Source: Halorubrum sp. CBA1125 | GTDB taxonomy: Archaea; Halobacteriota; Halobacteria; Halobacteriales; Haloferacaceae | Direction: 5' to 3' | Assembly: GCF_009742825.1 (NCBI RefSeq) | Contig: NZ_WPCE01000004.1 | Coordinates: 1 to 47,413 of the forward strand | Length of the DNA: 47,413 bases | In this document: in pieces, positions 21,201 through 36,754 of the stretch | Numbering within the stretch: the stretch's first letter is position 1 | Layout of the letters: the number at the start of each line of letters is the position of its first letter | Notes under the pieces: model-generated | What the model saw: the letters and a program-made list of their open reading frames with translations, nothing else | Told to the model about the DNA's origin: nothing | Database searches by the model: none | Translations under genes and position numbers: made by a program

Positions 21201-21360
21201 AGTACACCTCTCCGCCGACGATGAAATTCCCGTACGACCGGAGGCGGGTCCACAGCATGAACACGAGTGCCCCGAGGAGGATCGGGACGTGATACCACCG
21301 TCGGAACGCGTCGAGAGGCGACCTCCTGTCGTCGCCGACGGCGTCGGTTTGCTGACTCAT
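18247..21360 (-). CDS. aglB: Dolichyl-phosphooligosaccharide--protein glycotransferase AglB (STT3)
   Basis: 1037-residue oligosaccharyltransferase that transfers lipid-linked glycan to Asn in N-x-S/T sequons outside the membrane. The N-terminal half has about 13 membrane segments, with the acidic metal-binding motif in YFRGNDAWYH near residue 55. The signature WWDYG lies near residue 623 (VQSWWDYGHWITT). A large extracellular domain follows, ending in an Asp/Gly-rich, Ala-rich tail (DDESGSDGGDDGSDGGE). Length matches haloarchaeal AglB. It is the first gene beside an AT-richer glycan island, its standard position. A TATA-like TCTTATGG (about 21385-21392) sits 28 nt before the ATG. Confidence 0.95.
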   Translation of the reverse strand: MSQQTDAVGDDRRSPLDAFRRWYHVPILLGALVFMLWTRLRSYGNFIVGGEVYFRGNDAWYHLRETSYLLENWPNTLPFDPWTGFPLGYDAGQFGTLWDHIMAVGIWIARPIMGGTEEVMLVMAPIAGSLVAIPAYFIARRFVTRPLALAGVGVLALLPGTFFSYSLVGFPDHSAAEVLFQSLAVLAFLVAFAVAEREKPVWELVVDRDWEALKRPVAYAAAAGVALGLYIWTWQPGVLMVGFTGVYLAIKITSDAYHETSPEPVAFAGAVAMGVTGLMQLVPLDTFSFTPTQYSLLQVVLPLGIAVGAVFLAWLVRQWESRDLDASTYPPAVGGLILASAGVVWLALPSLWSTLTTNLLNFIGFSATAQFRTIGEGQPPLQNASFADFVLSQYGLAFFLALAAVLYILARPLYHSDDTNHTLYIPAALAIVGSVYAVPQLYGAIGGVVGLDWQVVGLAIAAAFLIGATFLVEYDAEELYFVVWAAFIGSAAFTQTRFNYYLAVIVAVGSAYFLQVAFDAIDLTSLADLREIEGWQVMTALAVIAILIVPLVGVATPVWTTGANTGPGAVTQWDPSLQWMNENTPHPGELEGANNPMELYGTYEHPEDGDFEYPDGAYGVQSWWDYGHWITTRAERIPNANPFQQNAGAAADYLLAPSEAEAREVLASQSTEGEHTRYVMVDRQMVSPNSKFNAPVTFYSGNETVDDFNRVLYQQTEQGGFRTVMQVNTQRYHESQMVRLYEHHGSAVEPRPVVVDWEPQAAQTADGEQISVNVIPSNPSAMVRQFDNMTAAREYVEEDGSAQVGGVGGLPSERVEALEHHRLVHATESQGQAPSALQVSVLQQLGVDVQGILGESVITAFQDDWVKTFERVPGATIEGSGAEPGQEVRATVQMQKPSGQTFRYTQYATADEDGTFELTVPYSTTGYDEFGPENGYTNTSVRATGPYQVTTGLTVANGTPSAFVGEVDVTEAQVVGADETAATVELEQRTLGGESDDESGSDGGDDGSDGGETADGNATAIGAGVEAAGAARVAAAA

Positions 21361-21742
21361 TACACGATTCCACTACCAAAACGTCCATAAGACTTGTTAT
21401 ATACCGCTCGATGGTCGGTCCAAGATGTTAGTGATTTGGTAGTGTATTCGACATTGGTATAATTTCGTCATCGAGGGTGACAGTCATGGATCGATGCGAT
21501 ATGTTCACGAATACTGGTAATACTATACTTATTCAGATGTACCGGTTCTGACAGATGTTGTGCCTGTAATCGATAGCACCCTAGAGACGAACGCGATATT
21601 AACAACTTTAGCGACCACGAACATGTTATGATCCACGACAATCATGAATCAGAAACTTAGAGCCGATCATCTCAAAAATAGTGGTAACTGTCGTCACCCA
21701 TGGACCACTGGGGTTTTTTATTTTGATTAGTGAAGATCAGTT
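21361..21742. promoter_or_regulatory. AT-rich divergent intergenic region between aglB and the glycan island
   Basis: 382 bp with no gene I can support; base composition drops sharply from the flanking aglB. It holds TATA-like boxes for aglB (21385-21392, and TATATAAC near 21396-21403) and, at the other end, TTTTTTATTTT (21714-21724), about 26 nt before the GT2 start at 21743. The middle holds only AT-rich filler with a small direct repeat of TAATACT. Confidence 0.5.
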
Positions 21743-22897
21743 ATGAAAAGACTTGTTCGTGGACTTGTCGCTTCTGTTGTAGCGCTGCTGTCGTTGACAG
21801 GGCTTCCTTACGCGATCTATCTCCTGTTAGTGAAGGTGTGGAATCCGCAGGGATCGCCAGCCAACAAACGTCGCGCAGAGCCGACGGTAAGTCTTGTTCT
21901 TCCGACCTATAACGAGGAGAGGATCGTCGAAAAGAAACTCCAAGATATAGTTTCGCTTGATTATCCCATGGACAAAGTCGAGGTTGTGGTCGTCGATTCC
22001 AGCGACGACGAGACTCGAAAGGTGATTCGAAGGTTCTTTTCGGACCGGGAAACACCCGAGTTGACGCTCATCGAAGAGGACGAACGTCGTGGACTGGCCC
22101 CCGCACTAAATGATGCATATGCGGTTGTGTCGAACGAAATGGTGGTTAAGACTGACTGCGACTCGAAACTCGCTGAAGACGCAATCCGTGAGGCTGCAGC
22201 CAACTTGGCGGACCCGGCTGTGGGAGCGGTGACGGGACGAAATGTTGATATCCTCGGCGGGAGCGATGTTGAGGAACGATATCGGAGCGTGCAGGCAACC
22301 ATCCAGACGCTAGAGTCCCACTTGGATTCGACGCTGATCTTCCATGGGCCATTCTCGGCGTTCGAGAACAAGGAACTTGTCCCGATTGATTCCGATTCAA
22401 TTGCTGATGACACTGAACTCGCGCTGAAGATCCGCCGAAATGGTAAGCGGGCCGTCTTTGATCCAGATGTGCGGTACAAGGAGGCGTCACACTCCGAATT
22501 TAGCAAGCGTCGGAGCCAAAAGGATCGCCGCGCGATGGGGCTGATTCGGCTGTTACTTCGGAACCGTGATATGCTCGGTCGCTATGGGTTGTACGGTGGT
22601 ATAGTGCTGCCGTTCAACTGGTGGTTTATGCTCGTTTCTCCATGGCTTCTAGCTGTGAGCCTAGGACTGATGACAGTTACAGGGACCCTTGTCGGAGGAC
22701 CATGGGGGCTCATTGTACCCGCAGGCGTAGGGGTATTTACGTTTCTTGGCTCTCGTGAACGTCTGGGATCACTGCAGTCTGTGTACGCGATGTTCGACAC
22801 ACAAGTATCACTGCTGTTTGCCGCGGTGAAACTGTGGCGTGGCGAGGGGTCCGCAGTGTGGGACGTTGACGAGGAGCTTCGAGATGTCTACGAGTGA
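21743..22897 (+). CDS. Membrane-anchored family 2 glycosyltransferase
   Basis: 384 residues. One N-terminal membrane segment (residues 8-30) precedes a GT2 domain: SLVLPTYNEERIV (50-62), VVVVDSSDDETRKV (81-94), metal-binding DCD (138-140), DDTELALKIRRNG (222-234) and a basic KRRSQKDRRA motif (256-265) like the QxxRW region of processive enzymes. Two or three membrane segments follow (287-336). It probably adds a sugar to a lipid carrier on the cytosolic face; the sugar cannot be predicted. First gene of the island; the downstream GT4 gene starts 18 nt after its stop. Confidence 0.85.
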   Translation: MKRLVRGLVASVVALLSLTGLPYAIYLLLVKVWNPQGSPANKRRAEPTVSLVLPTYNEERIVEKKLQDIVSLDYPMDKVEVVVVDSSDDETRKVIRRFFSDRETPELTLIEEDERRGLAPALNDAYAVVSNEMVVKTDCDSKLAEDAIREAAANLADPAVGAVTGRNVDILGGSDVEERYRSVQATIQTLESHLDSTLIFHGPFSAFENKELVPIDSDSIADDTELALKIRRNGKRAVFDPDVRYKEASHSEFSKRRSQKDRRAMGLIRLLLRNRDMLGRYGLYGGIVLPFNWWFMLVSPWLLAVSLGLMTVTGTLVGGPWGLIVPAGVGVFTFLGSRERLGSLQSVYAMFDTQVSLLFAAVKLWRGEGSAVWDVDEELRDVYE

Positions 22898-22915
22898 ATA
22901 GTAGGTGAGCGACAG

Positions 22916-23962
22916 ATGAAAATTCTGCAGGTGACCCCGCGATATCCGCCACAGTCAGGTGGCGTAGAGACACACGTCAAGGAAATCTCTGAGGGACTTG
23001 TAGAGCATGGTTACGAGGTAACCGTGATTTCAGCTGATGCGCAAAAAGAGAGTGAGCGACAGGAACGACGAGACGGAGTGGCCGTTCAACGATATCGAAG
23101 CGTCGCGCCCAATAACGCGATGCACGTCTGTCCACAGATCGCTATGGCTGTTCGGCAGTCGGACGCAGATATTATCCACGCACACAATTACCACTCGTTT
23201 CCGCTGTTCTTCGCCGCACTCGGTGTAGGAGATCGGAAGTTCGTTGTGACTACACACTATCACGGCGAGAGCACGAGTTCGCTTCGAAATCGGCTACTGT
23301 CACTGTATCGTCCGTTCGGCCGGTGGGCGGTCCGGCGCGCTGACGAAGTGATTGCAGTGAGTGAGTGGGAGTCTGAACAGTTAGCCACGGATTTCGACGT
23401 AGATGCGACAGTAATTCAGAATGGAGTGGACGGGGAGCGGTTTGCTCAGGCACAACCGATAGAGCGGGGGCGTCCTTATTTATTAACTGTAGGCCGGTTG
23501 GTGGAGTACAAGGGCGTCCAGCACGTGATTCGGGCGATGGTAGAGCTTCCGGAGTATGATTTGTTGGTGGCTGGGAGCGGGCCGTATCAAGAGGTGCTGA
23601 TGCAAATTGCTCGAGAGAACGGTGTCGAAAACCGAGTGAATTTTTTGGGGTATGTTGATGAAGAAGAGTTACCAGGATTGTATGCTGGGGCGGACGTGTA
23701 CGTGACAATGAGTGAATTTGAAGCTTATGGGATGACAGTTGCTGAGGCGCTAGCTGCAGGGACGCCTTGTGTGGTGAGAGAGGTCGGAGGACTTAGAGAT
23801 TGGATCGAGATCGAAGGTGTTCTTGGTCTCAGAGATATCTCATCGCAAGCGATTGCCCAGACAATAAAATCTCAAACAGATACTCAAGTGTCCTCACACA
23901 ACCCTAATTCGTGGCTAAACGTAACGAATCAGCTCATTCAAACAATATATGATTTGGAGTGA
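22916..23962 (+). CDS. Family 4 glycosyltransferase
   Basis: 348 residues, soluble GT-B fold, retaining. The N-terminal acceptor domain opens MKILQVTPRYPPQSGGVETH. The donor domain has LLTVGRLVEYKGVQHVI, then VAGSGPYQEVL and the E-x7-E-type motif in MSEFEAYGMTVAEALAAG. It lies 18 nt after the GT2 gene and is probably cotranscribed. The last 40 residues are AT-rich in codon choice. Donor and acceptor unknown. Confidence 0.88.
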   Translation: MKILQVTPRYPPQSGGVETHVKEISEGLVEHGYEVTVISADAQKESERQERRDGVAVQRYRSVAPNNAMHVCPQIAMAVRQSDADIIHAHNYHSFPLFFAALGVGDRKFVVTTHYHGESTSSLRNRLLSLYRPFGRWAVRRADEVIAVSEWESEQLATDFDVDATVIQNGVDGERFAQAQPIERGRPYLLTVGRLVEYKGVQHVIRAMVELPEYDLLVAGSGPYQEVLMQIARENGVENRVNFLGYVDEEELPGLYAGADVYVTMSEFEAYGMTVAEALAAGTPCVVREVGGLRDWIEIEGVLGLRDISSQAIAQTIKSQTDTQVSSHNPNSWLNVTNQLIQTIYDLE

Positions 23963-24096
23963 ACAAGAGTTCCACTTAGTCTCACTTCAGAGTGACGTCT
24001 CCTCTCTTTTTGTAGATTCAACAATACAAGTTGGAACGTATAATTACGCAAAATAGAACCGTACAGTATTTTACGCATTTCTACTCAATCATTTGT

Positions 24097-25200
24097 ATGC
24101 GTATTCTGTTCGTCACCGAGGAACCGATTCGGTTCTCGGGGACGATGGTCCGTGGGGGGCAGATTCACGTCAAAAACGTGATCGCTGGGCTTCGAGAACG
24201 GGGGCACAATGTTCATCTCGTCGACTGGAATTCCGAACCTGACAGGCAGTTTCAGCACTCTCTCACTCCTCGTTGTCGGTTCATTGAGGGACCATTTCGA
24301 ACGCTTCGAAGAGTACTCAACGTCGGAAAGACACTTGACCCGGATGTGATCGTCTCGAAGACTCGAAAGGTGTATCTTCCGGGACTCGTAGCCGCTCGCG
24401 TTCTCGGTGTTCCGCACATCGTCCACGTCGGATCTAGTCTCGATCCGCCAACAGGTGGATTCATCGATCGTATAGATTCTGGATCGTTTGTCGCTCGGCT
24501 CCGCGCACCACACGACGCGTACTTCGTCGTGTGTGACGCTCTGGGTGACGAACTTCGGGCTCGAGGGATCAATTCAGAGCGGATCTACGACGTTCGCAAC
24601 GCGGTAGACGCGACACGTTTCGTTCCGGAACCGGACGTCAGTCTCTCTAACTCCATCCGTAGACAGCTCGAAGATGTCGAAGGTCCTCTTCTCGGGTTCG
24701 TCGGAGGACTCACCGATTACAAGGGCGTATTCGATCTTGCAAACGCCGTCGAGCAAACCGATATGGATCCAATCGTAGTCGTCGCCGGGAACGGACCCGC
24801 TCGCGATCGATTCGAACGGGAGCTCGGCGAGCGGGGAATCTTCCTGGGAAGCGTCGACTACGAACTGATGCCCGCAGTCTACGCGGCTATCGACGCGCTC
24901 GTTTTGCCTTCTCATACGGAGGGTCTGCCACGAGTACTACTGGAAGCCGGTGCAGCAGGTCGACCCGTAGTGGCAACGACCGTCGGGGGCGTCCCGGAAG
25001 TCGTCAGTGACGGCGAAACTGGGCTGCTGTGTCCGCCTCGTGATCCCTCACGGCTCGCGTCGGTTATCACTGAACTATTCACGGAACGACAGCCGGTGGA
25101 GATGGGACGACGGGCGCGTAAACTGATCGTCGACGAATACACGTGGGATGCCCAGTACGACCGATACGAATCGTTCCTCACGGACGTGGTCTCACGGTGA
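24097..25200 (+). CDS. Family 4 glycosyltransferase
   Basis: 367 residues from the ATG at 24097 (MRILFVTEEPIRFSGTMVRG); the frame is open further upstream, but the extension (with FTHFYSIIC) is not GT-like. GT-B donor-site features are FVGGLTDYKGVFDL, VVVAGNGPARDRFE and SHTEGLPRVLLEAGAAGRPV with the conserved Glu pair. It is separated from the upstream GT4 by 134 bp of AT-rich DNA and is GC-richer, so it may begin a separate unit with the flippase gene. Confidence 0.88.
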   Translation: MRILFVTEEPIRFSGTMVRGGQIHVKNVIAGLRERGHNVHLVDWNSEPDRQFQHSLTPRCRFIEGPFRTLRRVLNVGKTLDPDVIVSKTRKVYLPGLVAARVLGVPHIVHVGSSLDPPTGGFIDRIDSGSFVARLRAPHDAYFVVCDALGDELRARGINSERIYDVRNAVDATRFVPEPDVSLSNSIRRQLEDVEGPLLGFVGGLTDYKGVFDLANAVEQTDMDPIVVVAGNGPARDRFERELGERGIFLGSVDYELMPAVYAAIDALVLPSHTEGLPRVLLEAGAAGRPVVATTVGGVPEVVSDGETGLLCPPRDPSRLASVITELFTERQPVEMGRRARKLIVDEYTWDAQYDRYESFLTDVVSR

Positions 25201-25366
25201 ATGGGTCGAACGACAAGAGATATACGCCGTTCGAGAAAATCGGGACTGTGAGACGGATGGTTGGTAATCGACCCGCTCGATCCTCTCCTGGGTCGGTCAG
25301 TTACCGATCCGACAGGAAGGGCCCGTCCCGGGCGCAATCGATTGAAGTCGGATTACTCGTCCACGT

Positions 25367-26956
25367 ATGACCGATCAGAATCCGTCGGAAGAGAACCCTC
25401 ACACGGATAATTCATCGACGGATGACTCCGAATTCAGCCAAGACGACGCGGTGAGGGGCATCCTCAAAGGCGCTGGCGTCGTCTATGCGGGCCTCATTCT
25501 GAATATGGGGATCGCGTTCGTCGCACAGCGATTTGCCGCGGTTCACCTTTCGATCGGCGGATTCGGCAGTCTGCTGTCCGGGACGGCGTTATTGGATGTC
25601 GGGGCTGTTGTGGCCGGCCTCGGACTCTCATCGGGTCTTATCCGCTATCTGCCCAGAGTTGACGAGGGTCAGAAACGACCGCTCGTCAAATATGCCTTCT
25701 TGTTTACCCTTCCGTTCTCTCTGGTCGTTGCGATTCCGACCGTCGCCTTCGCGGACGTCATCGCGTCGCAGGTGTTCGGCGACCCCGAGATCGCGATCAG
25801 CCTGCGTATCTTCGGCGCGACGATCCCGTTCGCCGCCATACTGAATCTCGCAATCGGGGGAATTCGTGGGCAGATGGTTTCCCGGTTTCGCGTGTATATA
25901 AAGGATATACTTCATCCTTCCATTCGGTTTGGCCTGATTATGGTTGCGGTCGTCGTCGGTGCCGGACAGGCGGGATTCGCGGCCGGATACGCGATTCCGT
26001 ATATCGTGGGTGCTGTCGTCGCTGTGGTGTTGCTCTGGAAGGTGCTTCCCAGAGGGAAGGGAATGGAGGCGGGCAAAAGCGTCCTTCCAGAGATGGTTCG
26101 GTACTCGTTGCCATTTACTGTTTCTGGACTTGCGTCATTTATTTATCGGTCTATTGATATATTTTTGATCCTCTATCTTCTCGATAGTCGAGCCGTTGGT
26201 ATGTATGGTGTCGCGTACGCGTTTGCACGGCTCATCGCTATGTTCTCGACGGCGTTCACCTACCTCAGTACGCCGGTGTCGAGCCAACTAGAGGACGACG
26301 ACCGCGTCAATGAGGCAGTGGCAGTACAGGGAACGATAGCCCGGTGGATAATTATCGCCACGACGGCCGCGCTCGTTCCAATGTCTGTGTTCGCGTCCGA
26401 GTTCTTGGGACTGATCTATCGTCCAGCATACGCTACGGGAGGCACCGTACTCGTTATTCTCGTTGCGGGATTCGCTATTAAGAACGTGCTACAGACCCAC
26501 GGCCCGATCCTTGAGGCTCTCGGAAAGTCCAAACTCGCCGCGTTTAATACCAGTACGGCTGCAGTAGTTAATGTCGTAACAAACCTCGCGTTGATTCCGA
26601 GATTCGGTATCGAAGGAGCAGCAGTCGCTACCTCGATTTCGTTCATCGTACTCGGTGGACTCCCGATGGTCGAGGTATGGTATTATACTAGTCTGACCTC
26701 GCTCTCGCGTACCGTCTTCGCGCCGGCGTTCCTCGCCGTTCCGATCTCGATCGCCGCTATTCCCGTATTTCGAGCTACACCACCGACACTTCTCTGGGTG
26801 CTCGCTACTAGTGCTGCCTTCGTCCTTTTCTATGCAGTCGCCGTGATCGCTGTACTCGGGTTTACCCGAGCAGACGTAATGGTTATCCGATCGGTCGAAG
26901 ATAAGTACGGCGTTCCGCTTGGACCGTTTGACGCTGTTCTTCGCCGATTCTCTTAA
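25367..26956 (+). CDS. Polysaccharide/oligosaccharide flippase (Wzx/MATE-like, AglR-type)
   Basis: 529-residue polytopic membrane protein with 12-14 predicted segments. It has a Ser/Asp/Asn-rich cytosolic N-terminus (about 35 residues) and then GILKGAGVVYAGLILNMGIA, typical of the polysaccharide biosynthesis/export family. Internal features include SGLIRYLPRVDEGQKRPLV and LEALGKSKLAAFNTSTAAVV followed by NLALIPRFGIEGAAVATSIS. It probably flips the lipid-linked glycan across the membrane for AglB. The 166 bp before it hold no convincing gene. Confidence 0.88.
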   Translation: MTDQNPSEENPHTDNSSTDDSEFSQDDAVRGILKGAGVVYAGLILNMGIAFVAQRFAAVHLSIGGFGSLLSGTALLDVGAVVAGLGLSSGLIRYLPRVDEGQKRPLVKYAFLFTLPFSLVVAIPTVAFADVIASQVFGDPEIAISLRIFGATIPFAAILNLAIGGIRGQMVSRFRVYIKDILHPSIRFGLIMVAVVVGAGQAGFAAGYAIPYIVGAVVAVVLLWKVLPRGKGMEAGKSVLPEMVRYSLPFTVSGLASFIYRSIDIFLILYLLDSRAVGMYGVAYAFARLIAMFSTAFTYLSTPVSSQLEDDDRVNEAVAVQGTIARWIIIATTAALVPMSVFASEFLGLIYRPAYATGGTVLVILVAGFAIKNVLQTHGPILEALGKSKLAAFNTSTAAVVNVVTNLALIPRFGIEGAAVATSISFIVLGGLPMVEVWYYTSLTSLSRTVFAPAFLAVPISIAAIPVFRATPPTLLWVLATSAAFVLFYAVAVIAVLGFTRADVMVIRSVEDKYGVPLGPFDAVLRRFS

Positions 26957-27247
26957 TAAGTAATCATCATTTATATCATATTACTATCAGTGTCCTCAGA
27001 AGTAGAGTGATAGTTGATAAGCTGTTAATATAGCTAAAATACAAAAATACATTCCACCGAAATTGGTGTCGCGAAGCTACCCATTTGGCGGCTTAAAACC
27101 GTATTTAAACTACTTCCATACTGTTAAGCTGGTATTTATTAAAACATAAAGAATATCCATAAGGACAGTTTAAATTGTTTTCTCAGATTTTCTCATTGTA
27201 ATATTAATATTTAGACAGGAAAGCCGCACCAGAAGTGCGCGTTATCG
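26957..27247. other. AT-rich gene-free stretch after the flippase
   Basis: About 290 bp of the lowest-GC DNA in the window. An inverted repeat, ACTATCA (26983-26989) with TGATAGT (27008-27014), lies 26 nt past the flippase stop and may act as a terminator or processing hairpin. A perfect 12-bp palindrome AATATTAATATT lies at 27200-27211. No coding frame, RNA gene or transposon end was recognised. Confidence 0.5.
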
Positions 27248-27373
27248 ATGGATTCACGAAACTACTTGAACACGATCGAGGAATCACTGGGAGTGGTAAA
27301 TGCAATATTCACCCCGTGTGACCCTCCAGCAAAGGGTACGAAGCCTACGGTTGGAATCTTCATCTCTGTTTGA
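27248..27373 (+). CDS. Unrecognised 41-residue small ORF
   Basis: A short frame starting MDSRNYLNTIEESLGVV and containing FTPCDPPAKGTKPTVG; composition is protein-like rather than the arginine-rich noise seen in antisense frames. I recognise no family. It could be a microprotein, the start of a gene truncated by rearrangement, or chance. It lies in the AT-rich gap before the oxidoreductase gene, on the same strand. Confidence 0.3.
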   Translation: MDSRNYLNTIEESLGVVNAIFTPCDPPAKGTKPTVGIFISV

Positions 27374-27495
27374 ATACCGTCTCTGCCACCATTTTCGCCC
27401 TATTGAGTGTTAGATACTCAAAGTGCAAAGCCGAGTTATTCTCTTACTCATTACGAGAGCGAAAGCTTGATAGAGAGAATAATTCAATTCGGATT

Positions 27496-28536
27496 ATGGC
27501 TATACTGGACCGAGTCCGTTCTGGACTCGGATTCGACAGATTACGTGCTGGCGTAGTTGGCGCCGGTTCGGTTGCTCGGAATGCGCATCTCCCGGTATAC
27601 AAGCAGGACGAACGGGTAGACTTAATAGCAATTGCTGATCTCGACAGTTCAAACCGAAAGTCTGCAGCTCAAGACTTCGACGCAGAGCGCACGTATTCCA
27701 ACGGGGATCAGATGATTTCTGAGGAGGATCTCGATCTCGTCAGTATCTGTACGCCCCCAGCGACTCACGAAAGTCTCTTTATTACTGCTGCAGAGGCTGG
27801 TACGAACATCTACTGTGAGAAGCCGATGACGATTTCTGTCGAAGCAGCCAAGCGGATGACTGCGGCCGCCGAATCCGCAGAAGTTATATCACAAATTGGG
27901 TATACTCGGCCATATGTGGAAAATTATAAAACCGTTTTGAGTCTCCTAGATAATTCTATACTCGGCGACATACAATCGTTGCATACACACCGTATCAGAG
28001 GTCCTCCCAGTGGACGATGGAACTATGACCCATCTGTTTCGGGTGGGGGAGTCGTCTCCGACCAACTCCCTCATATACTTGACTTTTATATTCGAGTGTT
28101 CGACACCGAACCGAAGATACGTGACGTTCGGTTCCGATCGGATGAGGTTCCGACGGTTGAAGACTACGCTGAAATTGATTTTGAGTTTGACGGGATTCCA
28201 GTTAGAACAACGCTTGGGTGGACGCTTCATTCTCAGTACCAGCGGAACGTCCTTAATGCAAACCGGGGAACAGTGGAATACAATATGAGGACAATTGAAG
28301 GCAGTATTCAAGGTTCGGAATTTGCTCAAAAGTGTGGTGAAAACCCCGTTATCGACATTAAAGGTCTGTTTCGTTCGTTCGCGTCAGCCTCAGATAACTT
28401 TCACTCTAAACGCATTCAAGATTTCGTCGACCACGTGGAAGCGAACGATTTCAACACGGTTGCCCCAGTACAACGTGGTCTGAGGATAACGAAGATAATT
28501 CGAGAGATATACGACCGTTCGGAGGTACTGAAATGA
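27496..28536 (+). CDS. Gfo/Idh/MocA family oxidoreductase
   Basis: 346 residues from the ATG at 27496 (MAILDRVRSGLGFDRLR). The Rossmann motif is VVGAGSVARNAHLPVY; the family signature EKPM is in NIYCEKPMTISVEAAKRM, where the Lys contacts the cofactor nicotinamide. The C-terminal substrate domain includes SGGGVVSDQLPHILDFYIRV. Such enzymes oxidise or reduce sugars, often at C3 of UDP-sugars in glycan clusters. Its stop overlaps the next gene by 4 nt (ATGA), implying the two oxidoreductases act together. Confidence 0.85.
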   Translation: MAILDRVRSGLGFDRLRAGVVGAGSVARNAHLPVYKQDERVDLIAIADLDSSNRKSAAQDFDAERTYSNGDQMISEEDLDLVSICTPPATHESLFITAAEAGTNIYCEKPMTISVEAAKRMTAAAESAEVISQIGYTRPYVENYKTVLSLLDNSILGDIQSLHTHRIRGPPSGRWNYDPSVSGGGVVSDQLPHILDFYIRVFDTEPKIRDVRFRSDEVPTVEDYAEIDFEFDGIPVRTTLGWTLHSQYQRNVLNANRGTVEYNMRTIEGSIQGSEFAQKCGENPVIDIKGLFRSFASASDNFHSKRIQDFVDHVEANDFNTVAPVQRGLRITKIIREIYDRSEVLK

Positions 28537-29477
28537 GAATTCTAATTACTGGGGCGACTGGATATATCGGATTATCTATCATTCGTAGAATATCCGATAC
28601 TCACGAACCGGTCGCAATGGTTCGAGAGAGTTCGCGGACAGAACTTCTCCCACCTAATATCGAAACAGTCGAAGGAGATATTACGGACATAGAATCGCTC
28701 CGAGGTGCGTTTGAAGGGGTAGATGCTGTCGCACATCTTGCTGGTGTTAATCCGGGATCAAAAAATTCGACCCAAGTGGTCAGCGAGGTCGACGAAGACA
28801 CGTTCACGGCGGTCAACGTGGAAGGAACGCGGAATATCGTCAATGCGGCTACCGAGGCTAACGTGAGTTCATTAGTCTATACGAGCACCACAAACGCTCA
28901 TCCGGATGTACCGTACGACTATGAGTCGATGTATGTTGATACAAAACGTCGCGGCGGAGAAATTGTCTCTGAATCATCTCTGGACTATACCATCGTCCAC
29001 CCCACCTATGTGATGGGGCCATACGATTACCGACTAAAACGGTACAACGAATTTCGCCTTGCTGCTGCCAACGCCATACTGATTCCTCCCCTCTACACCC
29101 CAGGGAGAATAAATATCGTTCACGTGGACACGCTTGCAGATAGCATCATTCACTACTTGGAAGAGCCAACGAGAAACAGGCACTTGGTGAGCGGTCGTAA
29201 TATCGACCGACGGACTTATACGCGACAACTTGCATCGCTCTCTGACCGGCATTCGTTTGTCTTCCCTCTCCCGTTCCACAAGATTCTCCTTCCGTTCATC
29301 GTCAGATTGGTTGATGCGATAGGACTAGCTAACGTCAGCGTAGAGTCGTTGGCACTTGAAGAACATACGGCGACGGTTCCCGAGATCCACGAAGAACGCG
29401 CGCCCGTGAAACGGAAGTCATGGAAACAAGCGGTGACCGACACGTACCGTTGGTATCAGGACGTACGGTTGTTGTAA
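28533..29477 (+). CDS. Extended SDR: NAD-dependent epimerase/dehydratase
   Basis: 314 residues. The N-terminal motif ITGATGYIG binds NAD(P); AHLAG and the catalytic MYVDTK (Y-x3-K) are conserved, with the Thr/Ser of VYTSTTNAH upstream. Likely an NDP-sugar epimerase, dehydratase or reductase. Coupled to the Gfo/Idh/MocA gene by a 4-nt overlap. Its TAA ends at 29477, directly against the stop of the convergent FkbM methyltransferase gene. Confidence 0.85.
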   Translation: MRILITGATGYIGLSIIRRISDTHEPVAMVRESSRTELLPPNIETVEGDITDIESLRGAFEGVDAVAHLAGVNPGSKNSTQVVSEVDEDTFTAVNVEGTRNIVNAATEANVSSLVYTSTTNAHPDVPYDYESMYVDTKRRGGEIVSESSLDYTIVHPTYVMGPYDYRLKRYNEFRLAAANAILIPPLYTPGRINIVHVDTLADSIIHYLEEPTRNRHLVSGRNIDRRTYTRQLASLSDRHSFVFPLPFHKILLPFIVRLVDAIGLANVSVESLALEEHTATVPEIHEERAPVKRKSWKQAVTDTYRWYQDVRLL

Positions 29478-30248
29478 CTACGTTTGCTCGTAGATTCTGA
29501 TCACGTCGTCCCGGCGGATGTTGGTTTCTACTACGGAGAATCCGGAGTTACAAACGTATTCGTGGAGCTTTTCGGCGGTCCAATCACCAACGATTCGGCC
29601 TTTATGATATTCGACCATCAGTAGTCGAATTGTATCTAACTGCTCTCCAAAAGATGTAAGAACATCGGATTCGAGTCCTTGCACATCGAGTTTGATTGCA
29701 TCTGGGCTAGTGAACAGTGGTGGGTCAGTTTGCCCCTCCATAACTAGAGTCGACCGATATTCGTCCGTATCCACATCAAATATAGGTAGTACTGCTGCGC
29801 CAGCTCCCTCTCCGATTCCGGTCGTTGAAGTGGTTTCGCTGTCGGCTGTCGGACCGAGACCTGCACAGACCGGAACGACATCGCACGTCGGATTAAGACA
29901 GATATTTCTATGCAACTTTGAGAACGATCTCGGATTCGGTTCAAAAGCGACCGTTGGTGCGATTTGACCCATCAGAATTGCGTGCCAGCCGACGTTCGCG
30001 CCAATATCCCACGCGATATCATCCTCAGAAAGGTGCGAGAGGAATGTTTCTGTAATCTCTTTTTCATCATCTAGCGTCTGTACTCCGTGGTATTCACGGC
30101 TTGAGTGTGCTGCAAACGTCCCAGTATAATCGCCAACGGTCGTACTGATCTCCCTCGGGCCGACTACCGTGTAAAATGCCTGATCCAGAATAGGTTCTAG
30201 TGAGGTTCCCTTGATTGCCTCTCCGATCCGATTAAGAATTCGGTTCAT
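29478..30248 (-). CDS. FkbM family SAM-dependent methyltransferase
   Basis: 256 residues from the ATG at 30246-30248; a GTG one codon earlier also fits. The SAM motif is AWDIGANVGWHAILM, with TVAFEPNPRSFSKL next and AIKLDVQGLESDVL, typical of the FkbM family, which O-methylates sugars and polyketides. It probably methylates a sugar of the island glycan, as known for AglP-like enzymes. Its start overlaps the stop of the upstream GT2 gene by one base (TGATG). Confidence 0.85.
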   Translation of the reverse strand: MNRILNRIGEAIKGTSLEPILDQAFYTVVGPREISTTVGDYTGTFAAHSSREYHGVQTLDDEKEITETFLSHLSEDDIAWDIGANVGWHAILMGQIAPTVAFEPNPRSFSKLHRNICLNPTCDVVPVCAGLGPTADSETTSTTGIGEGAGAAVLPIFDVDTDEYRSTLVMEGQTDPPLFTSPDAIKLDVQGLESDVLTSFGEQLDTIRLLMVEYHKGRIVGDWTAEKLHEYVCNSGFSVVETNIRRDDVIRIYEQT

Positions 30249-31085
30249 CACGCGTACTCCTCAAGCTGTTCGTCCGGATCTAACCATATCTCTGGCACTT
30301 CACGTTGTAGCGACTGCTGGAAGTCGAAAGCATAGATGTCGTGTCGATCAAACGAATCCAACGTACGGGTGCCCTGAAGTTTATTCGTGACCCATGCCGC
30401 TGGAAAGACTAGTAATGCGCCGATCTTTGGTTTCAATGTAGATGTTTCGGTCATCCACTTCCAAATTAAATACTCTACTCCAACTCCACTTTTTAATTTC
30501 ATCCTAGCAACGTGGTAAAAACGCTGGATCGAACCAACAAAATCTTTCTCCTTGCCGGCGTTTTCTTCGTGAAGTAGAACGTCGCAGAAGCGAAGTTTTC
30601 CTGTGGCTAATGCACGGCGTTTAAGATCTCGGCGCTCAGCCACCTTCAGATCATTCCATCCGCCAAGTTCGTAGTACAACTTACGCGATGCGACCATCGC
30701 ACCACCGGCAAGCATCACGTCACCTTCTTCTTCAACCAGATCTTCATAAAATGAAACAAAATCAAAAAAGGCGATCGTCTTGATAATAAATTGCGTCAAG
30801 ATCGCCAAGAGAAATGACGACATCTCCACGAGAGTGCTCTAACGCGACTTGGCGTCCTTTCCCAATACTGGAACCTTCAGCCATCACTACTCGAACATCT
30901 TTACGTCCCTTTGATAGGTCAAGGAGATATTCCAGCGAACCGTCATCTGACCCTGCGTCGGAAATAACAAGCTCCCACTCTGGTCGATCTTCTATGATAG
31001 ACGCGATGAATCCTGCTGAATCTTCGATATACTCTACATTGTTATAATGGGTAGAACAGACGCTATATTGGATGTCGTCGGTCAT
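30248..31085 (-). CDS. Family 2 glycosyltransferase, one-base frameshift
   Basis: The N-terminal part (MTDDIQYSVCSTHYNNVEYI, then VISDAGSDDGSLEYLLDL and ISLGDLD) and the C-terminal part (DFVSFYEDL, then AGGAMVASRKLYYELGGW) are in different frames. They join when one T is removed from the six-base T run at 30764-30769. The span of 838 nt is one base too long; corrected length 278 residues. GT2 features are the SDAGSDDGS nucleotide site and the GDLD metal motif. It is transcribed away from the sulfatase gene across a 62-bp gap. Confidence 0.78.
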
Positions 31086-31110
31086 CAACGGAGGATAACA
31101 AGTTCTAAAG

Positions 31111-31123
31111 AATAAGTCTTATT
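31111..31123. promoter_or_regulatory. Palindromic TATA-like element shared by divergent genes
   Basis: AATAAG-T-CTTATT is centred at 31117, 32 nt from the GT2 ATG (31085, minus) and 31 nt from the sulfatase ATG (31148, plus). It resembles two outward-facing TATA boxes fused around one axis and probably drives both leaderless genes. Confidence 0.5.
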
Positions 31124-31147
31124 TATCCTATTTGAGTATATGCAACG

Positions 31148-32500
31148 ATGAAAGACAGTAACGTTCTGCTGGTGACAATCGATAGTCTCCGATATGATAA
31201 ATTAATTAACATCGATGTCCCAGCTACCCCCTGCATCAACTCTCTCAGCACCAGCGGATGCGAGTTTACACAGGCGGTCTCGAACGGTCCTAACACAACT
31301 GCGAGCTTTCCCGCAATTCTTACAGGTACCCATTCGCTTAGCTATGGCCCCTACGGCGTCCTAGATAAGGATAAATCTCCGTTTCTTGCTCGTTCACTAA
31401 GTAGGGAAAACTACGATACCATCGGCTATCACTCAAATCCATTCCTCGGAAACGAGCAGAATTATCATACCGGATTTGAGGTCTTCAACGACCTTGTAGA
31501 CGGGTCTGATTCCGTCACGACGGCCAAAGACCGTATCGAACGACAACTGGATCCAGATTCCCTTTTCTATCATCTACTTCGGCGTATATGGCACCTATTT
31601 AGCGTAACGACGGATACGAAGTCATACGCCCGCGGTGATAGCATTACTGGCGGAGCGATAGATTGGATGGAGGCTCGCCGATCTGATGATCCCTTCTTTA
31701 TGTGGCTTCACTATATGGATGTTCACTATCCGTTTGATCCGCCGAAGTGGGTATTCGACGAGTTACCGTTTGACCGACCATCGAACCGCCGAATTGTCAC
31801 TCTAAACGGAATGATGCAGGAACGCCCAGAAGAGCTTGACGAACAGGATGTTCGAGATCTAAAGCGGTTGTATTTCGCTGAAGCGCGGTTTGTCGACAGA
31901 CAGATCGGCCGGATGATTGATGCGATAGCCGATATGGGTGAATTGGAGGACACTATAATCGCTGTTACTGCTGACCACGGGGAAGCGTTCGGAGAACACG
32001 ATCGATTCGGCCATCACGTCTACCCCTATGATGAGTTAATTCGAGTTCCGTTGGTAATCGGAGGTGGACCAATTGATAGTCAAACAGTTGATGAACAAGT
32101 GCAATTGCTAGATCTCGCTCCAACGCTCCTTGACCTCGTTAGTATAGACGTACCAAAAGAGATGGAAGGAAGGAGCATCGCTCCTCTCCTTCGCGGCGAA
32201 GATTCATTTGAACTGAGCCATCCCGCGATGTTCATCTCCGAAAGCGGCAAGACGTTCGGAGTAAGGACGGAGCAGTGGAAATTCATCCGCCGGTCAACTA
32301 CGAATGAAAAACTGTTATTCGATCTCGAATCCGACCCCAACGAGGAAGTCAACGTTGCCTCGGCGAATGGAGATGTTATTGAAAATCTCGAGAACATTAT
32401 TCTAGAGTACGAGGAGTCGGTTGACGCTGGGGTTGCGGATATTGAGTGGTCGGACGAGACTAAAGAGCGACTTCAGAACCTCGGATACCTTCAGGAGTGA
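31148..32500 (+). CDS. Sulfatase-like alkaline phosphatase superfamily hydrolase
   Basis: 450 residues. The metal-site opening is NVLLVTIDSLRYDKL; the nucleophile region is GPNTTASFPAILTG, where the bacterial sulfatase motif C/S-x-P-x-R becomes S-F-P-A-I, lacking the Arg. Later metal ligands are in TADHGEAFGEHDRFGHH. There is no signal peptide, so action at the cytosolic side or on lipid-linked intermediates is likely. It may act as a phosphodiesterase or phosphotransferase rather than a sulfatase. The C-terminus ends RLQNLGYLQE, a tail also found in the second superfamily member at 35234-36754. Confidence 0.82.
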   Translation: MKDSNVLLVTIDSLRYDKLINIDVPATPCINSLSTSGCEFTQAVSNGPNTTASFPAILTGTHSLSYGPYGVLDKDKSPFLARSLSRENYDTIGYHSNPFLGNEQNYHTGFEVFNDLVDGSDSVTTAKDRIERQLDPDSLFYHLLRRIWHLFSVTTDTKSYARGDSITGGAIDWMEARRSDDPFFMWLHYMDVHYPFDPPKWVFDELPFDRPSNRRIVTLNGMMQERPEELDEQDVRDLKRLYFAEARFVDRQIGRMIDAIADMGELEDTIIAVTADHGEAFGEHDRFGHHVYPYDELIRVPLVIGGGPIDSQTVDEQVQLLDLAPTLLDLVSIDVPKEMEGRSIAPLLRGEDSFELSHPAMFISESGKTFGVRTEQWKFIRRSTTNEKLLFDLESDPNEEVNVASANGDVIENLENIILEYEESVDAGVADIEWSDETKERLQNLGYLQE

Positions 32501-32578
32501 TGTATTCGTTTCTGAAGATTCTATTGATCTAAATATATTACGGAGATAGAAGTGTGATAATATTCGGCTGGTAGTTTG

Positions 32579-33361
32579 TTAAATCTCAACTAAGTCTCCA
32601 ATAGCCACAAATACCGCGTCGGTTAACTGGTTGAGCAGTACCTCTAGTCTTTCTCGGTACTCCATACCGGTGTTCTCCAGCCCGTGATGATTCGTTGCAT
32701 CGTACGGATGCATATAGAATGAGAACACCTCAGCGTTAGCAGCTAACTCGGTAAGCGCACTCGTCCCTGAACACTTCCACCGATCAGCTCGAAGGGTAGC
32801 AGCCGTAGCCGTTACGGGGCGTTCGGCTAGCGCCCGAAGGCCACACGTTGAGAAGATTGGCAGAGTGCCGTGAGTCACAGGCACCTCCAGCAGTCCGTTG
32901 AGTTCGAACGGTTCAGATCGCTTAGTCAACGTGGCAGGTAGATACCCGTCGTATCGGACGTTAATCGAGGCGTCTACAGCAAATCCCAATTCCTGTAATA
33001 CATCAACCGTTTCGAGACTCGCACTATGGCGACCGGCACGGAACGATATCGGCTCATTCCCAATTACATCGGTAATTTCCTCCCGAGTCCGTTTGACTAG
33101 TTCCCACTGGCGATCACGGGGTAGTTCGGCGAGCTGGTCAGAGTCGTGACCGAATTCCCGAGGATGAACGTGAACGCCGATCTCGTGTGACTCCGAGAGC
33201 GTCGCGAGCAGATCGGGCGCCTCGGCGGCGATGCGATAGGTGGTGAATACGGTCCCGCGAGGAACAACACGATCGAACCATTCCATCGCGTCACGGACGC
33301 CATCCATCGTGCCGTCCTTGTTCGGTTCGAGATCGACAGAAAAGAGGGCACTATCAGCCAT
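32579..33361 (-). CDS. NodB-type polysaccharide deacetylase family protein
   Basis: 260 residues. The first catalytic motif is FSVDLEPNKDG (D-x-E in place of the usual DD), the metal-binding motif is EIGVHVHPREFGHD (H-x-H), and SFRAGRHS matches the family's third motif R-x-G/R. The family removes N-acetyl groups from amino sugars. Start and stop signals are TGATG with the upstream GT4 gene (one-base overlap). Last gene of a tightly packed four-gene unit. The divergent motif 1 leaves activity uncertain. Confidence 0.78.
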   Translation of the reverse strand: MADSALFSVDLEPNKDGTMDGVRDAMEWFDRVVPRGTVFTTYRIAAEAPDLLATLSESHEIGVHVHPREFGHDSDQLAELPRDRQWELVKRTREEITDVIGNEPISFRAGRHSASLETVDVLQELGFAVDASINVRYDGYLPATLTKRSEPFELNGLLEVPVTHGTLPIFSTCGLRALAERPVTATAATLRADRWKCSGTSALTELAANAEVFSFYMHPYDATNHHGLENTGMEYRERLEVLLNQLTDAVFVAIGDLVEI

Positions 33362-34422
33362 CAGCAGGCTACCTCCAGTAGAAGAGATTCGTACTGCTCT
33401 GCGAGCCGATCGTCCGCAAAGCAGTCATCTAGTTCGACCGATTCGTACGACTGATCGAGTACCGCTTGCAGTTCTGTCTCGTCGGTGAACGTCTCGACAG
33501 CGACAGTGGCACACTCTCCGACGTTACGGGCAATACACGGTGTTCCACAGGCTGTCGCTTCCAGCAACACGTTCGGGAGTCCCTCGTGCAGCGATGGATG
33601 AACGTAGAGGTCCGCTGCTCGATAGTAGTCCACGATTTTCTTGTGGGAAATACGACCCGGCGCATGGACTCCTGTGGTATCCTGTAACCCCTCTCGCATC
33701 GGCCCGTCGCCCACGATAACCCAAGTCCCATCACACGACGGTGCGACCCTCTGAATCGTCTCGGCTCCTTTTCGACGGCTCACTCGCCCGACGGTTAACA
33801 ACATCCGCTCATTCGACCCAATCCCCAGCGACTCGCGGAGATCACTCGCGTCGCCCGGCGAGAACCGCGAACGATCAACTGGCTGTGGAATTTCCCACAC
33901 ATCTGACCGACGGAACCGACGTTCCAGATCGCGGCGACCGTTCGGACCGAGAACGACAACTGCATCAGATAGATGGACAGCCGCAAGCGCGATCATATTT
34001 TTCAACGCGAACGTACGAAGTTTCTCGGTGAAATTCGTCGCGAACTGGTGTTCCCGGAAGTTATCGCCGGCCAGCCGTGTGACCGTCGGCGTGTCTGTCT
34101 TCCGGCCGGCGAGCGCGACAGCAGAACCATGAGTCGGAAAGCGAGTGACTTGCACTAGTACATCCGGCTGCTCGGCAGCAGCGTACTGCGTGACCGACTG
34201 ATAAAGAACTCGTAGACGATCACGAGCAGTCTCGACTGGCTCGTGATTGATCTGAACAGTCCGATAATCTTCGGGGGTCTCGATTCCCTCCGGAACGAGT
34301 AGGTCACATGCGAACGTCGTATCTGCCGACTTGAGGAGTCGTCGCAAGTTACTCAGTAGCGTTTGTACATTCCCCGGGAGTTCCGTACCTCCGAGGAATC
34401 CCACGTGTATGCTCTCGTTCAT
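33361..34422 (-). CDS. Family 4 glycosyltransferase
   Basis: 353 residues with a GT-B fold. The N-terminus is VGFLGGTELPGNVQTLLSNL; the donor half has LLTVGRVSRRKGAETIQRV, VIVGDGPMREGL and SLHEGLPNVLLEATACGTPC with the conserved Glu pair. Starts within the deacetylase gene upstream (ATGA overlap) and ends at the next deacetylase start, so it is translationally coupled on both sides. Sugar unknown. Confidence 0.87.
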   Translation of the reverse strand: MNESIHVGFLGGTELPGNVQTLLSNLRRLLKSADTTFACDLLVPEGIETPEDYRTVQINHEPVETARDRLRVLYQSVTQYAAAEQPDVLVQVTRFPTHGSAVALAGRKTDTPTVTRLAGDNFREHQFATNFTEKLRTFALKNMIALAAVHLSDAVVVLGPNGRRDLERRFRRSDVWEIPQPVDRSRFSPGDASDLRESLGIGSNERMLLTVGRVSRRKGAETIQRVAPSCDGTWVIVGDGPMREGLQDTTGVHAPGRISHKKIVDYYRAADLYVHPSLHEGLPNVLLEATACGTPCIARNVGECATVAVETFTDETELQAVLDQSYESVELDDCFADDRLAEQYESLLLEVAC

Positions 34423-35237
34423 ACGTGAATTGTCCTATTAGCCGATTCGGGCATCATCCTCGCCTGTCCGTCGGAAACAGCCACGACGAGACGCTCAAAA
34501 GCATCGAATTCGTCAGCCAGCCACAGACACGCTGGATGTGCCAGTACAGTCGCTACTCCTTCGTCTAACTGAACCGACTCAGTTTTCTCTAAAACCCACT
34601 CGACCCACTCATCAACTGAGACCGATCTCTCACCGAACGGCCCCTCGAATTCCTCAACGGCCTCCGATCCAGGTGTCCTGAACGCGTGATAGACGTGCTC
34701 GTGATCCGGCGGTGTATTGACCGGCACGACCGTCACGCCGTCCTCCTGACGTACCCGTTCGTCTGGACCAACGGCATCAGAGAAGTGCGTAATCCCCTCT
34801 TCTGCCAGTAACTCTGTCGTATACTGATCGTGGCGATACGCGTGATCCCGCCACGCGGTCACGTCTACGCCGCGTTCGTTCAGCGCCTGGATCGTCCGAC
34901 GAATCTCGAACCGCTGAAACGGCCGCGGACCGTTCCACGACCCGATCCGTCCGCCGGTCACCTTCTCGGCCCCGCGCCACGTCTTGTGGACCGGCGTGTC
35001 GAACGCCCAGTAGTTGTGGCCGCCGATCTCGACGTTGTCCATCGCCGCCAGCGTTTCGACTCGCTCCGGCTCCTCGACGGCGGTCCGCCCAGTGAGAAAC
35101 AGCGTCACCGGCACGTCGTACTCCGCCGCGATCTCGGCGTACTCGATCGCGACCTCCACCTCGGTGCGATCCAGATACGCCTGGTCTCGCGTCCCCATCG
35201 ACATATGATGGACGTCGCCGGTCAGACAGACAGTCAC
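34419..35237 (-). CDS. Polysaccharide deacetylase-like protein (second NodB-type)
   Basis: 272 residues from a GTG at 35235-35237. Opening CLTGDVHHMSMG carries the first metal-binding Asp and two His; PVTLFLTGRTAVEE and VEIGGHNYWAFDTPVHKTWRG match the NodB fold with its second motif. Coupled by GTGA overlap to the phosphodiesterase upstream and by ATGA to the GT4 downstream. It differs clearly from the other deacetylase in the same unit, so the two may act on different sugars. Confidence 0.78.
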   Translation of the reverse strand: MTVCLTGDVHHMSMGTRDQAYLDRTEVEVAIEYAEIAAEYDVPVTLFLTGRTAVEEPERVETLAAMDNVEIGGHNYWAFDTPVHKTWRGAEKVTGGRIGSWNGPRPFQRFEIRRTIQALNERGVDVTAWRDHAYRHDQYTTELLAEEGITHFSDAVGPDERVRQEDGVTVVPVNTPPDHEHVYHAFRTPGSEAVEEFEGPFGERSVSVDEWVEWVLEKTESVQLDEGVATVLAHPACLWLADEFDAFERLVVAVSDGQARMMPESANRTIHV

Positions 35238-36754
35238 TGCAAGTATCCCAAGTCCTCCAGCCGATTCTGGACCGATTCGTCGGAACGCTGATCGACGAAG
35301 TCCGGAACGATCGGATCCCGTTCGCCTGGCTGATCGTAATCGAATAGCCCCAGCGGTTCTCCATCCATATCGGACGGAATCGCCGATCCGTGCTCGTGAA
35401 GGATCGTCGGCGCGATGTCGGTAATCGAGATCCGATCCTCAGCGGTTCCCGTCACGTCGGGCCCGTCAGCAAGGAACAGGCCGGTTCGAACGTTCTCGGC
35501 CGACCAGTGGCTCACGTCCTCAAACACGGGGTTGGGGCCGATTGCCCCGCTTGTGTGAACGCCCGGCGTCTGATCGAAAACGATCGTCGGCGCCTCCGAG
35601 ACGTACGGCCCCTCGTATACCTCCTCGCGTCGGTAGACACTTTGCGCGATTGGAATCCCCGAAATTTCGCTCTTGAGCGAGGATAACCGATCGATGATAT
35701 GGTCTCGAGTCTCTTTTTTTCCATCGATAACGTAAATCAGGCCCTGACCGCTCGCCACTGCCCGCGACTGTTCCCAATCGATCCGATCGAGCTTCTGGTC
35801 ACGCTTTGCCCCCTCGTCGTCTTCCGGAACAGCCTGTTTGATACGTTCCGGAGCGAGTGCAGCCACCACCCCTCGAACGCCGACTCTATCTGCTAGCTTC
35901 GAGATTCGCTGCTTGTTGATGTCGAACCGTTCTAGTACACTCGTCGTACCGCTTGTCTTCGTCTCGAGAAATCCTTCCTCCTCCAGCCAGCTGTTGGCGT
36001 AGAACATCGTATCGATCTCTGCGCAGCCGTGATCGGACATCAGATAGAGGGTGGCTTCGGGATACTCTTCTCGAATCGCGCCGATGTGTTGGTCGATCAC
36101 CTGCCACGCCTCGGCCGTCGGCTCTCCCCGCCAGAAGTAGTGCTGAAGGACGTTGATGTAGAAGACAGTGCAGTGTGCGATGTCGACGTCGCGCTCGTCG
36201 AGGAGCGATCGGAAGGTCGTCAGCCGTTCGTCGATCAGGTCGACGATGTCTGCCGCCACGTCTCTGTCATCCTGTGACGTTATCGGTGAGTCGGGATGTA
36301 GCTGGTAACTCCGCTCCTCCAATTCTGCTTCGAGTTCTGCCGGGTCCGTATAGTTATCCTGTTCGCTTCCCGGGCCTCCGGCAACGAGATACCCGTCCTC
36401 CATCGGCAGGGGTGGATAGGTCATCGGGAGGTTGACGACGCCCGTCGAAACACCGTCCTCTGCCAGGTAGTCCCAATAGTTCGCACTTTTAAATGACCGA
36501 GATGTCGGCGTCGAGAGGGTTCGATTTTCCGTGTCGATCTTCTCCCACCAGTAGACACCGAGTTTCCCTGGGTTCTTCCCGGTGGAGTAACATCGCCAGT
36601 TGGGACACGTCACGGGTGGGAGACAGCTTTCGAGATCCGCAACGGTCCCGTGCTCTCGGAGCAACTGGATATTCGGGAGGTCTCCCGAGTCCAGCCAGGG
36701 AGAAAGGAGGTCCCAGTTCGCCCCGTCGAGTCCGAGGACGATAGATTGAACCAT
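35234..36754 (-). CDS. Type I phosphodiesterase/nucleotide pyrophosphatase family protein
   Basis: 506 residues of the alkaline phosphatase superfamily. The opening IVLGLDGANWDLLSPWL holds the first metal ligand; PPVTCPNWRCYSTGKNPGKLG contains the likely Thr nucleophile; LMSDHGCAEIDTMFYANSW holds later ligands. No signal peptide is seen. Related haloarchaeal genes sit in glycan clusters and may cleave or transfer phosphodiester-linked groups. The C-terminus is RLEDLGYLQ, matching the tail of the sulfatase-like protein. First gene of the coupled unit PDE-deacetylase-GT4-deacetylase. Confidence 0.83.
   Translation of the reverse strand: MVQSIVLGLDGANWDLLSPWLDSGDLPNIQLLREHGTVADLESCLPPVTCPNWRCYSTGKNPGKLGVYWWEKIDTENRTLSTPTSRSFKSANYWDYLAEDGVSTGVVNLPMTYPPLPMEDGYLVAGGPGSEQDNYTDPAELEAELEERSYQLHPDSPITSQDDRDVAADIVDLIDERLTTFRSLLDERDVDIAHCTVFYINVLQHYFWRGEPTAEAWQVIDQHIGAIREEYPEATLYLMSDHGCAEIDTMFYANSWLEEEGFLETKTSGTTSVLERFDINKQRISKLADRVGVRGVVAALAPERIKQAVPEDDEGAKRDQKLDRIDWEQSRAVASGQGLIYVIDGKKETRDHIIDRLSSLKSEISGIPIAQSVYRREEVYEGPYVSEAPTIVFDQTPGVHTSGAIGPNPVFEDVSHWSAENVRTGLFLADGPDVTGTAEDRISITDIAPTILHEHGSAIPSDMDGEPLGLFDYDQPGERDPIVPDFVDQRSDESVQNRLEDLGYLQ

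Follow-up and report, generated by a model that had tools for sequence, protein, structure and literature searches.

A recurrent PDE-NodB gene cassette, inverted beside aglB, in the N-glycosylation locus of Halorubrum sp. CBA1125

The window that we analysed is one entire contig of 47,413 bases (NZ_WPCE01000004.1) from the metagenome-type assembly of Halorubrum sp. CBA1125 (GCF_009742825.1; 3.23 Mb, 379 contigs, 84% complete). Its island of genes at positions 21,361 to 36,754 is the variable part of a haloarchaeal agl (N-glycosylation) locus, a known kind of locus, and carries an inverted copy of a gene cassette that recurs across haloarchaeal families. An STT3/AglB gene stands here with five clustered glycosyltransferase (GT) genes, one of which is frameshifted. 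The left anchor consists of the oligosaccharyltransferase gene aglB (18247..21360, minus strand; Pfam STT3 with AglB core and L1 domains, 64-82% identity in congeners) and, conserved beside it, a DUF368/PF04018 polyprenyl-phosphate translocase-like gene recognised by Pfam (17294..18184, minus strand). An NTP-transferase/hexapeptide protein gene (PF00483; 37770..39002, minus strand) forms the right anchor. Below, genomes are labelled G and loci L, each with a number, and families are labelled f1, f4, f5, f7 and f10.

The plus-strand genes nearest aglB encode the glycosyltransferases GT2a (21743..22897; PF00535), GT4a (22916..23962; PF13439/PF00534) and GT4b (24031..25200 with a likely start at 24097; PF00534) and a Wzx-type flippase (25367..26956; PF13440/PF01943). 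GT2a is 64-65% identical to proteins encoded beside aglB in G004, G007 and G032 and 70% identical to one in G058, which belongs to another family; GT4a adjoins GT2a in G004, G032, G034 and G058. GT4b has counterparts of 52-58% identity in nearly all cassette loci, and the flippase (45-54%) adjoins GT4b in most of them. A Gfo/Idh/MocA dehydrogenase gene, Gfo (PF01408; plus strand, 27370..28536, likely start near 27496), overlaps by 4 bp the gene for an SDR-type epimerase/reductase (PF01370/PF13460; 28533..29477, plus strand). They are followed on the minus strand by an FkbM methyltransferase gene (29478..30251; PF05050 and TIGR01444 above cut-off) and GT2b (30248..31088). Beyond these lies a gene of the alkaline-phosphatase (AP) superfamily, Sulf (31148..32500, plus strand; PF00884), a probable glycan sulfotransferase with Thr50 at the formylglycine position of sulfatases. 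The remaining genes are all on the minus strand, and encode a divergent NodB-type deacetylase, NodB1 (32579..33361; weak PF01522 match of 26 bits, profile match to 3rxz with E 4.6e-11), GT4c (33361..34422; PF00534, 44-49% identity in the cassettes of G154, G264, G288 and G058), a divergent NodB-fold protein, NodB2 (34419..35237; weak PF01522 match of 23.8 bits, and an AlphaFold model), and, coupled to NodB2, PDE (35234..36754), a protein of nucleotide pyrophosphatase/phosphodiesterase (NPP) fold with Thr49 and a PF01663 match of 116 bits.

We recovered every gene that an earlier sequence-only reading of this DNA had listed, from aglB, the GTs and the flippase to the Gfo-SDR pair, FkbM, the two AP-superfamily enzymes and the two NodB-type proteins. 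The five glycosyltransferases that it counted are present, but the fifth, GT2b, is not intact. A single-base frameshift at a T6 tract (30764-30769, minus strand) divides this gene between two reading frames. It is assigned to GT2 from an N-terminal sequence pattern, and its C-terminal half has no Pfam match. Phase variation, a pseudogene or an error of sequencing could each explain the frameshift. The sequence-only reading had also overlooked the pseudogene of an NAD-dependent epimerase at about 36833..37400 (minus strand), which three-frame translation revealed as a remnant with a missing N-terminus, a frameshift and stops. Homologues spanning the full epimerase are found in eight sister aglB loci at 58-69% identity, for example an intact one in G016, and that of one sister locus was confirmed intact by Pfam. 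All remaining genes of the island have open frames of full length in which the motifs are conserved.

Among sister genomes the anchors, DUF368-aglB and the NTP-transferase, stay in place while the island interior varies. The NTP-transferase gene (79-85% identity) marks the far end of the island in seven congeners, 21-38 kb from the start of the stretch compared. GT2a-GT4a lies beside aglB in G004, G032 and G034, and in G007 the contig stops at GT2a. G016 has PDE-NodB2 and GT4b between aglB and the epimerase, an interval that in G030 holds PDE, NodB2, a GT4, NodB1, two Sulf relatives, the flippase and GT4b. We found no close Gfo relative in the congeners examined, and the nearest matches among 293 genomes of the haloarchaeal order, the set behind all order-wide counts given here, were 36-42% identical; only Gfo-SDR-FkbM-GT2b is unique to this locus. 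Variability of the aglB region as such is already known, because strain-to-strain differences in a 37-kb N-glycosylation region that includes aglB have been published for Halorubrum lacusprofundi; the part of that report on this region describes strain variation only, without a cassette, an inversion or recurrence across families (PMC6011602).

Base composition had been taken as a sign of repeated replacement by recombination, with blocks at 21.7-24.0, 24.1-27.0, 27-32.5 and 32.6-36.8 kb. GC content is 67-73% in the flanks and falls to 44-61% within the island (52% for the island, 68% for aglB), and the blocks are real: GC at third codon positions (GC3) is 0.54, 0.60, 0.49 and 0.64, respectively (between-block chi-square p = 5e-16), and is homogeneous inside blocks 1-3 (p = 0.10, 0.25 and 0.60). 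Block 4 divides further, with 0.56-0.59 in NodB1/GT4c vs 0.69-0.71 in NodB2/PDE (p = 5e-5). However, AT-richness does not mark this strain, as 23 of 26 congeneric aglB loci, each compared over the 15 kb beside aglB, have a GC of 0.49-0.60 (0.52 in the window). Nor are the changes of gene direction evidence of recombination, because identical strand switches recur in distant genomes; they are part of the ancestral cassette. Four independent block replacements also did not hold up: because GT2a-GT4a-GT4b-flippase is contiguous in a distant family (G058), blocks 1 and 2 are one module.

The enzyme set is likewise not the one-off that it had appeared to be, as much of it recurs, mostly beside aglB, in ten genomes that span five or more families. 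The core of the cassette is PDE overlapping NodB2 by 4 bp, and roughly 3% of haloarchaeal genomes have it. Of the 293 order genomes, 10 encode NodB2 relatives and five NodB1; the eight closest NodB2 relatives, from families f1, f4, f5 and f7, have PDE directly upstream at 60-65% identity. An independent PDE search of the order genomes gave a group of nine orthologs set apart by score (>780 bits, the next at 570), eight of which come from genomes with NodB2, while the ninth, from G058 (family f10), has NodB1 instead; G030 is the tenth genome. All ten PDE orthologs adjoin a NodB gene, and where the partner is NodB2 the overlap is exactly 4 bp at eight of nine loci. Of the ten loci with a PDE ortholog, nine lie in the aglB neighbourhood, and these represent at least five families; at the other, in G237, the surrounding 35 kb contain no aglB. 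By comparison, 24 aglB neighbourhoods in the genus that have no PDE ortholog yielded no NodB gene (10/10 vs 0/24, Fisher p = 8e-9, uncorrected for shared descent). Around the core, NodB1, GT4c, Sulf, the flippase and GT4b recur in varied combinations. Searches for island DNA in plasmids and for NodB2 in phages gave no match, and we found no publication describing the cassette; it is newly recognised, mobile and order-conserved. In L104, PDE and NodB2 seemed to be fused, but this proved to be an out-of-frame open reading frame.

The order GT2a-GT4a-GT4b-flippase-...-Sulf-NodB1/GT4c-NodB2-PDE is conserved, strand switches included. G058 reads epimerase - GT2a - GT4a - GT4b - flippase - Sulf - GT4c - Sulf-like - NodB1 - PDE - ... 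- aglB, and G264 and G154 read GT4b - flippase - NodB1 - GT4c - NodB2 - PDE - aglB. The window has the order of these three loci, with matching strands at the GT/flippase and NodB/PDE ends, but it is reversed between aglB and the epimerase remnant, so that GT2a faces aglB and PDE faces the remnant. Other loci place a GT2 and a GT4 between PDE and aglB, a pair that the window is without. The simplest account is that the cassette inverted between aglB and the epimerase, that the epimerase decayed, and that Gfo-SDR-FkbM-GT2b was inserted between the flippase and Sulf.

Comparison of identities shows that the cassette was imported by lateral transfer. Relative to the window, G058 has 68% identity in PDE and 70% in GT2a but only 35% in aglB, whereas the congeners compared have an aglB of 73-82% identity, yet a PDE of 62-64% (about 62-65% with GT2a included) and a GT2a of 64-65%. 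Island identity does not track aglB identity, and the island genes were therefore transferred horizontally. The view of the island as a laterally acquired glycan locus beside aglB with a species-specific interior is thus upheld by the conserved anchors, the varying interior and these discordant identities. It could instead be argued that the inversion, the frameshift and the pseudogene reflect degradation, or strain mixing in a metagenome contig, and that the island makes no distinct glycan. The state of the assembly, the broken GT2b and the dead epimerase would fit this, but both anchors match sister chromosomes, the other genes are intact with their motifs, and the cassette is collinear with complete genomes. 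We consider decay or mis-assembly very unlikely.

The known system closest to the AP-superfamily part of the island is the aglB cluster of Halobacterium salinarum, in which GTs stand beside 'sulfatase-like' proteins that lack formylglycine, Agl30 (VNG1056C) and Agl31 (VNG1057C). Deletion, together with expression in Haloferax volcanii, demonstrated that both are sulfotransferases, and the tetrasaccharide made there contains sulfated iduronic and glucuronic acid (PMC11980604). We recognised the two genes in Hbt. salinarum DSM 3754 at L142:6413-7396 (Agl30) and L142:4976-6355 (Agl31), an assignment inferred from the gene pairing, a transmembrane segment at residues 21-39 (in exact agreement with the publication, provided that translation begins at MSVN) and the soluble neighbour. 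In that strain the agl sulfotransferase cluster occupies a separate, lower-GC contig of 18 kb, and the aglB contig ends just beside aglB. Unlike the cassette, the stretch of this cluster that we found contained no NodB-type gene or PF01663 PDE ortholog.

Sulf aligned with the Agl31 family over 312 columns (hhalign 99.9%, E 1.6e-35). In alignment to sulfatases it has no C/S-x-P-S/A-R formylglycine signature and reads T50-T-A-S-F at that site, where Thr50 occupies the catalytic position and Ala and Phe replace the Pro and Arg. Because the formylglycine motif is absent and Sulf is a profile homologue of a proven sulfotransferase, sulfation is likelier for Sulf than phosphodiester chemistry, which had been proposed for both AP-superfamily enzymes. 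Of the 26 sister aglB regions, about 19 contain AP-superfamily genes, and at the aligned position not one of these has the formylglycine signature; two true CSPSR sulfatases are encoded elsewhere in the genus. The aglB locus of the congener G008 contains adjacent orthologs of Agl30 (76%) and Agl31 (64%) at L033:5937-8366, which would predict the Hbt. salinarum type of sulfation in that species.

For PDE, the transferred group could be sulfate or a phosphodiester. Its AlphaFold model (pLDDT 89) has the NPP fold, matching Xac NPP with Z 30.0 and a root-mean-square deviation of 3.6 over 343 residues, and VIA-align gave NPP-type relatives only among the matches listed, which says nothing against sulfatase relatives. 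PDE also has no formylglycine signature and reads V-T49-C-P-N; Thr49, at the nucleophile position, is kept in at least 90% of 27 homologues. The candidate zinc ligands D10, D241, H242 and H205 are invariant and H400 is nearly so, and motif spacing would place Asn201 at the position expected for a zinc-binding Asp. In an alternative reading, the Thr nucleophile of PDE, and possibly that of Sulf, would pass a phospho-alcohol or phospho-sugar on to the glycan, as in phosphoglycerol or phosphoethanolamine transferases; the fold, the strength of the PF01663 match, the Thr and the lack of a convincing profile link between PDE and Agl31 all favour it. On the other hand, proteins of the same superfamily at an aglB locus are proven sulfotransferases, and Sulf is homologous to one of them. 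PDE also ends in an LGY tail like those of Agl30, Agl31 and Sulf, though this tail is general to the haloarchaeal class without formylglycine. We regard phosphodiester transfer as possible but doubtful. The idea that the LGY tail singles out aglB-linked enzymes was dropped, as the tail also occurs in sulfatase-family proteins without CxPxR far from aglB. In its C-terminal L..LGY form it marks haloarchaeal sulfatase-like proteins without CxPxR (L173-L180 and the aglB-linked ones), and the two CSPSR sulfatases checked do not have it at their ends.

The AlphaFold model of NodB2 (pLDDT 81) has a NodB-type fold, with 3rxz as the best Foldseek match (E 4e-11) among many CE4 structures; the matches include ArnD (8t0j) and the CE4 pseudoenzyme BA3943. 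D8 (the Asp base), R130 (motif 3) and H234 (motif 5) of NodB2 are invariant in 11 sequences. In NodB1, D10 and R108 are invariant in seven, and His218 is lost or unaligned in L154 only. Deacetylation by both proteins is plausible, although with HxxxH incomplete neither falls among the canonical metal-dependent deacetylases. This gap, together with the ArnD and BA3943 matches, would accommodate another role, either as an ArnD-like deformylase acting on a lipid-linked sugar or as a non-catalytic partner of the neighbouring transferase. We think such a role improbable, as each alignment keeps the Asp, the motif-3 Arg and, in NodB2, His234 invariant, and paralogs next to PDE paralogs elsewhere (L162-L169) retain a full motif as HTHTH, HTHSH or HTQTH. 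Free amino sugars, if made, would not set this glycan apart from that of Haloarcula, as had been suggested: the Haloarcula hispanica N-glycan, 6-sulfo-QuiN(beta1,6)-[Glc(alpha1,2)-]Gal, already has a free amino sugar with a sulfur group, which there sits at C6 of QuiN (PMC9943897).

Taken together, we find it probable that the island, as the variable part of an agl locus, contains a recurrent cassette for the synthesis of a dolichol-linked oligosaccharide, imported and in inverted orientation. In the cytoplasm, the GT2 and GT4 enzymes would build up the chain on dolichyl phosphate, Gfo/SDR and FkbM may alter or methylate a sugar, and NodB1 and NodB2 would take the N-acyl group off amino sugars. 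Sulf, and perhaps PDE, would add charged groups, for Sulf most likely sulfate. The flippase would turn the finished glycan outward, and AglB, as the presumed acceptor enzyme, would move it onto protein; we infer these steps and the sugars involved. Several observations weigh against this reading. Because of the frameshift in GT2b and the loss of the epimerase, the pathway could lack steps. Neither NodB2 (H74...A78) nor NodB1 (H64...R68) has the second His of the canonical HxxxH metal motif, so any deacetylation by them may not follow the usual mode. The comparison of PDE with Agl31 (hhalign 10%, E 0.003, 27 columns) gives no convincing profile link. Finally, aepG of Har. hispanica lies in the aglB cluster and serves exopolysaccharide, not N-glycan (PMC9943897).

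The example of aepG also supports a different destination, in which the cassette makes a polymer or lipid-linked glycan (exopolysaccharide or glycolipid) that is no AglB substrate, and lies near aglB as part of a shared hot spot for glycan genes. The G237 pair and the PDE paralogs that stand with NodB genes away from aglB, beside dolichyl-phosphate-sugar enzymes, agree with it. However, the concentration of the other nine PDE-ortholog loci around aglB does not, and these loci have a flippase with no polymerase or chain-length gene recognised. A destination other than AglB is unlikely in our judgement, and we retain N-glycan synthesis as the more probable function of the island.

The bacterial Arn/Nax-type pathway comprises a GT2, a NodB-family deacylase on a polyprenyl-linked sugar and an ArnT-type transferase, with lipid A as the end acceptor. 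The island is like it in that the NodB-fold enzyme would be expected to act on a lipid-linked sugar, in line with the ArnD match of NodB2; unlike in ArnC/ArnT and NaxD systems, a flippase and AglB take the place of lipid A as end acceptor. Almost all order genomes (289 of 293) have more distant PDE relatives, and a profile search detected a NodB gene close by in 10 of 19 of their loci; the 19 were chosen largely among the highest scores and do not give a random estimate. These NodB genes are often beside genes for GT2, LPG_synthase_TM and dolichyl-phosphate-sugar transferases, and the pairing of NodB with GT2 and PMT-type genes at such paralogous loci is Arn/Nax-like. A widespread second set (L162-L169, for example L164:4130-10690) comprises a PMT-type transferase, LPG_synthase_TM, a DUF3473-type NodB with the full metal motif, a GT2 and a divergent PDE paralog, in an arrangement that resembles the Arn/Nax-type pathway for lipid-linked amino sugars.

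NDST, in which a (beta/alpha)7-type deacetylase is coupled to a putative sulfotransferase, offers a further likeness, by analogy only (PMC10864358). By that analogy, NodB2 would free the amine of a dolichol-linked hexosamine and PDE would add sulfate or a phosphodiester to the same sugar, yielding an N-glycan with an N-sulfated or zwitterionic amino sugar that an AP-superfamily transferase had made, and the pair would be passed between families as a surface-identity module at aglB. We offer this as a long shot. Unlike in NDST, the two activities reside in separate, mostly overlapping genes at the loci examined rather than in one chain, and PDE is an AP-superfamily protein, not an NDST-type sulfotransferase; N-sulfation here is hypothetical.

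If the cassette reading is true, haloarchaeal surface glycans are not random gene assortments, as a fixed-order cassette moves between families and can flip at aglB, and genome sequences could reveal the type of glycan in the manner of serotypes. The reading would extend the recent finding that sulfatase-like proteins of agl loci are sulfotransferases. The PDE-NodB pair makes a specific and testable prediction, that a sugar first loses its N-acyl group and then receives a charged group, and is the part of the cassette worth an experiment.

On the side of aglB away from the island, the DUF368 gene adjoins aglB in all congeneric genomes examined but G023, where the stretch stops short. This genus-wide placement of DUF368/PF04018 suggests recycling of the dolichyl-phosphate carrier for N-glycosylation.

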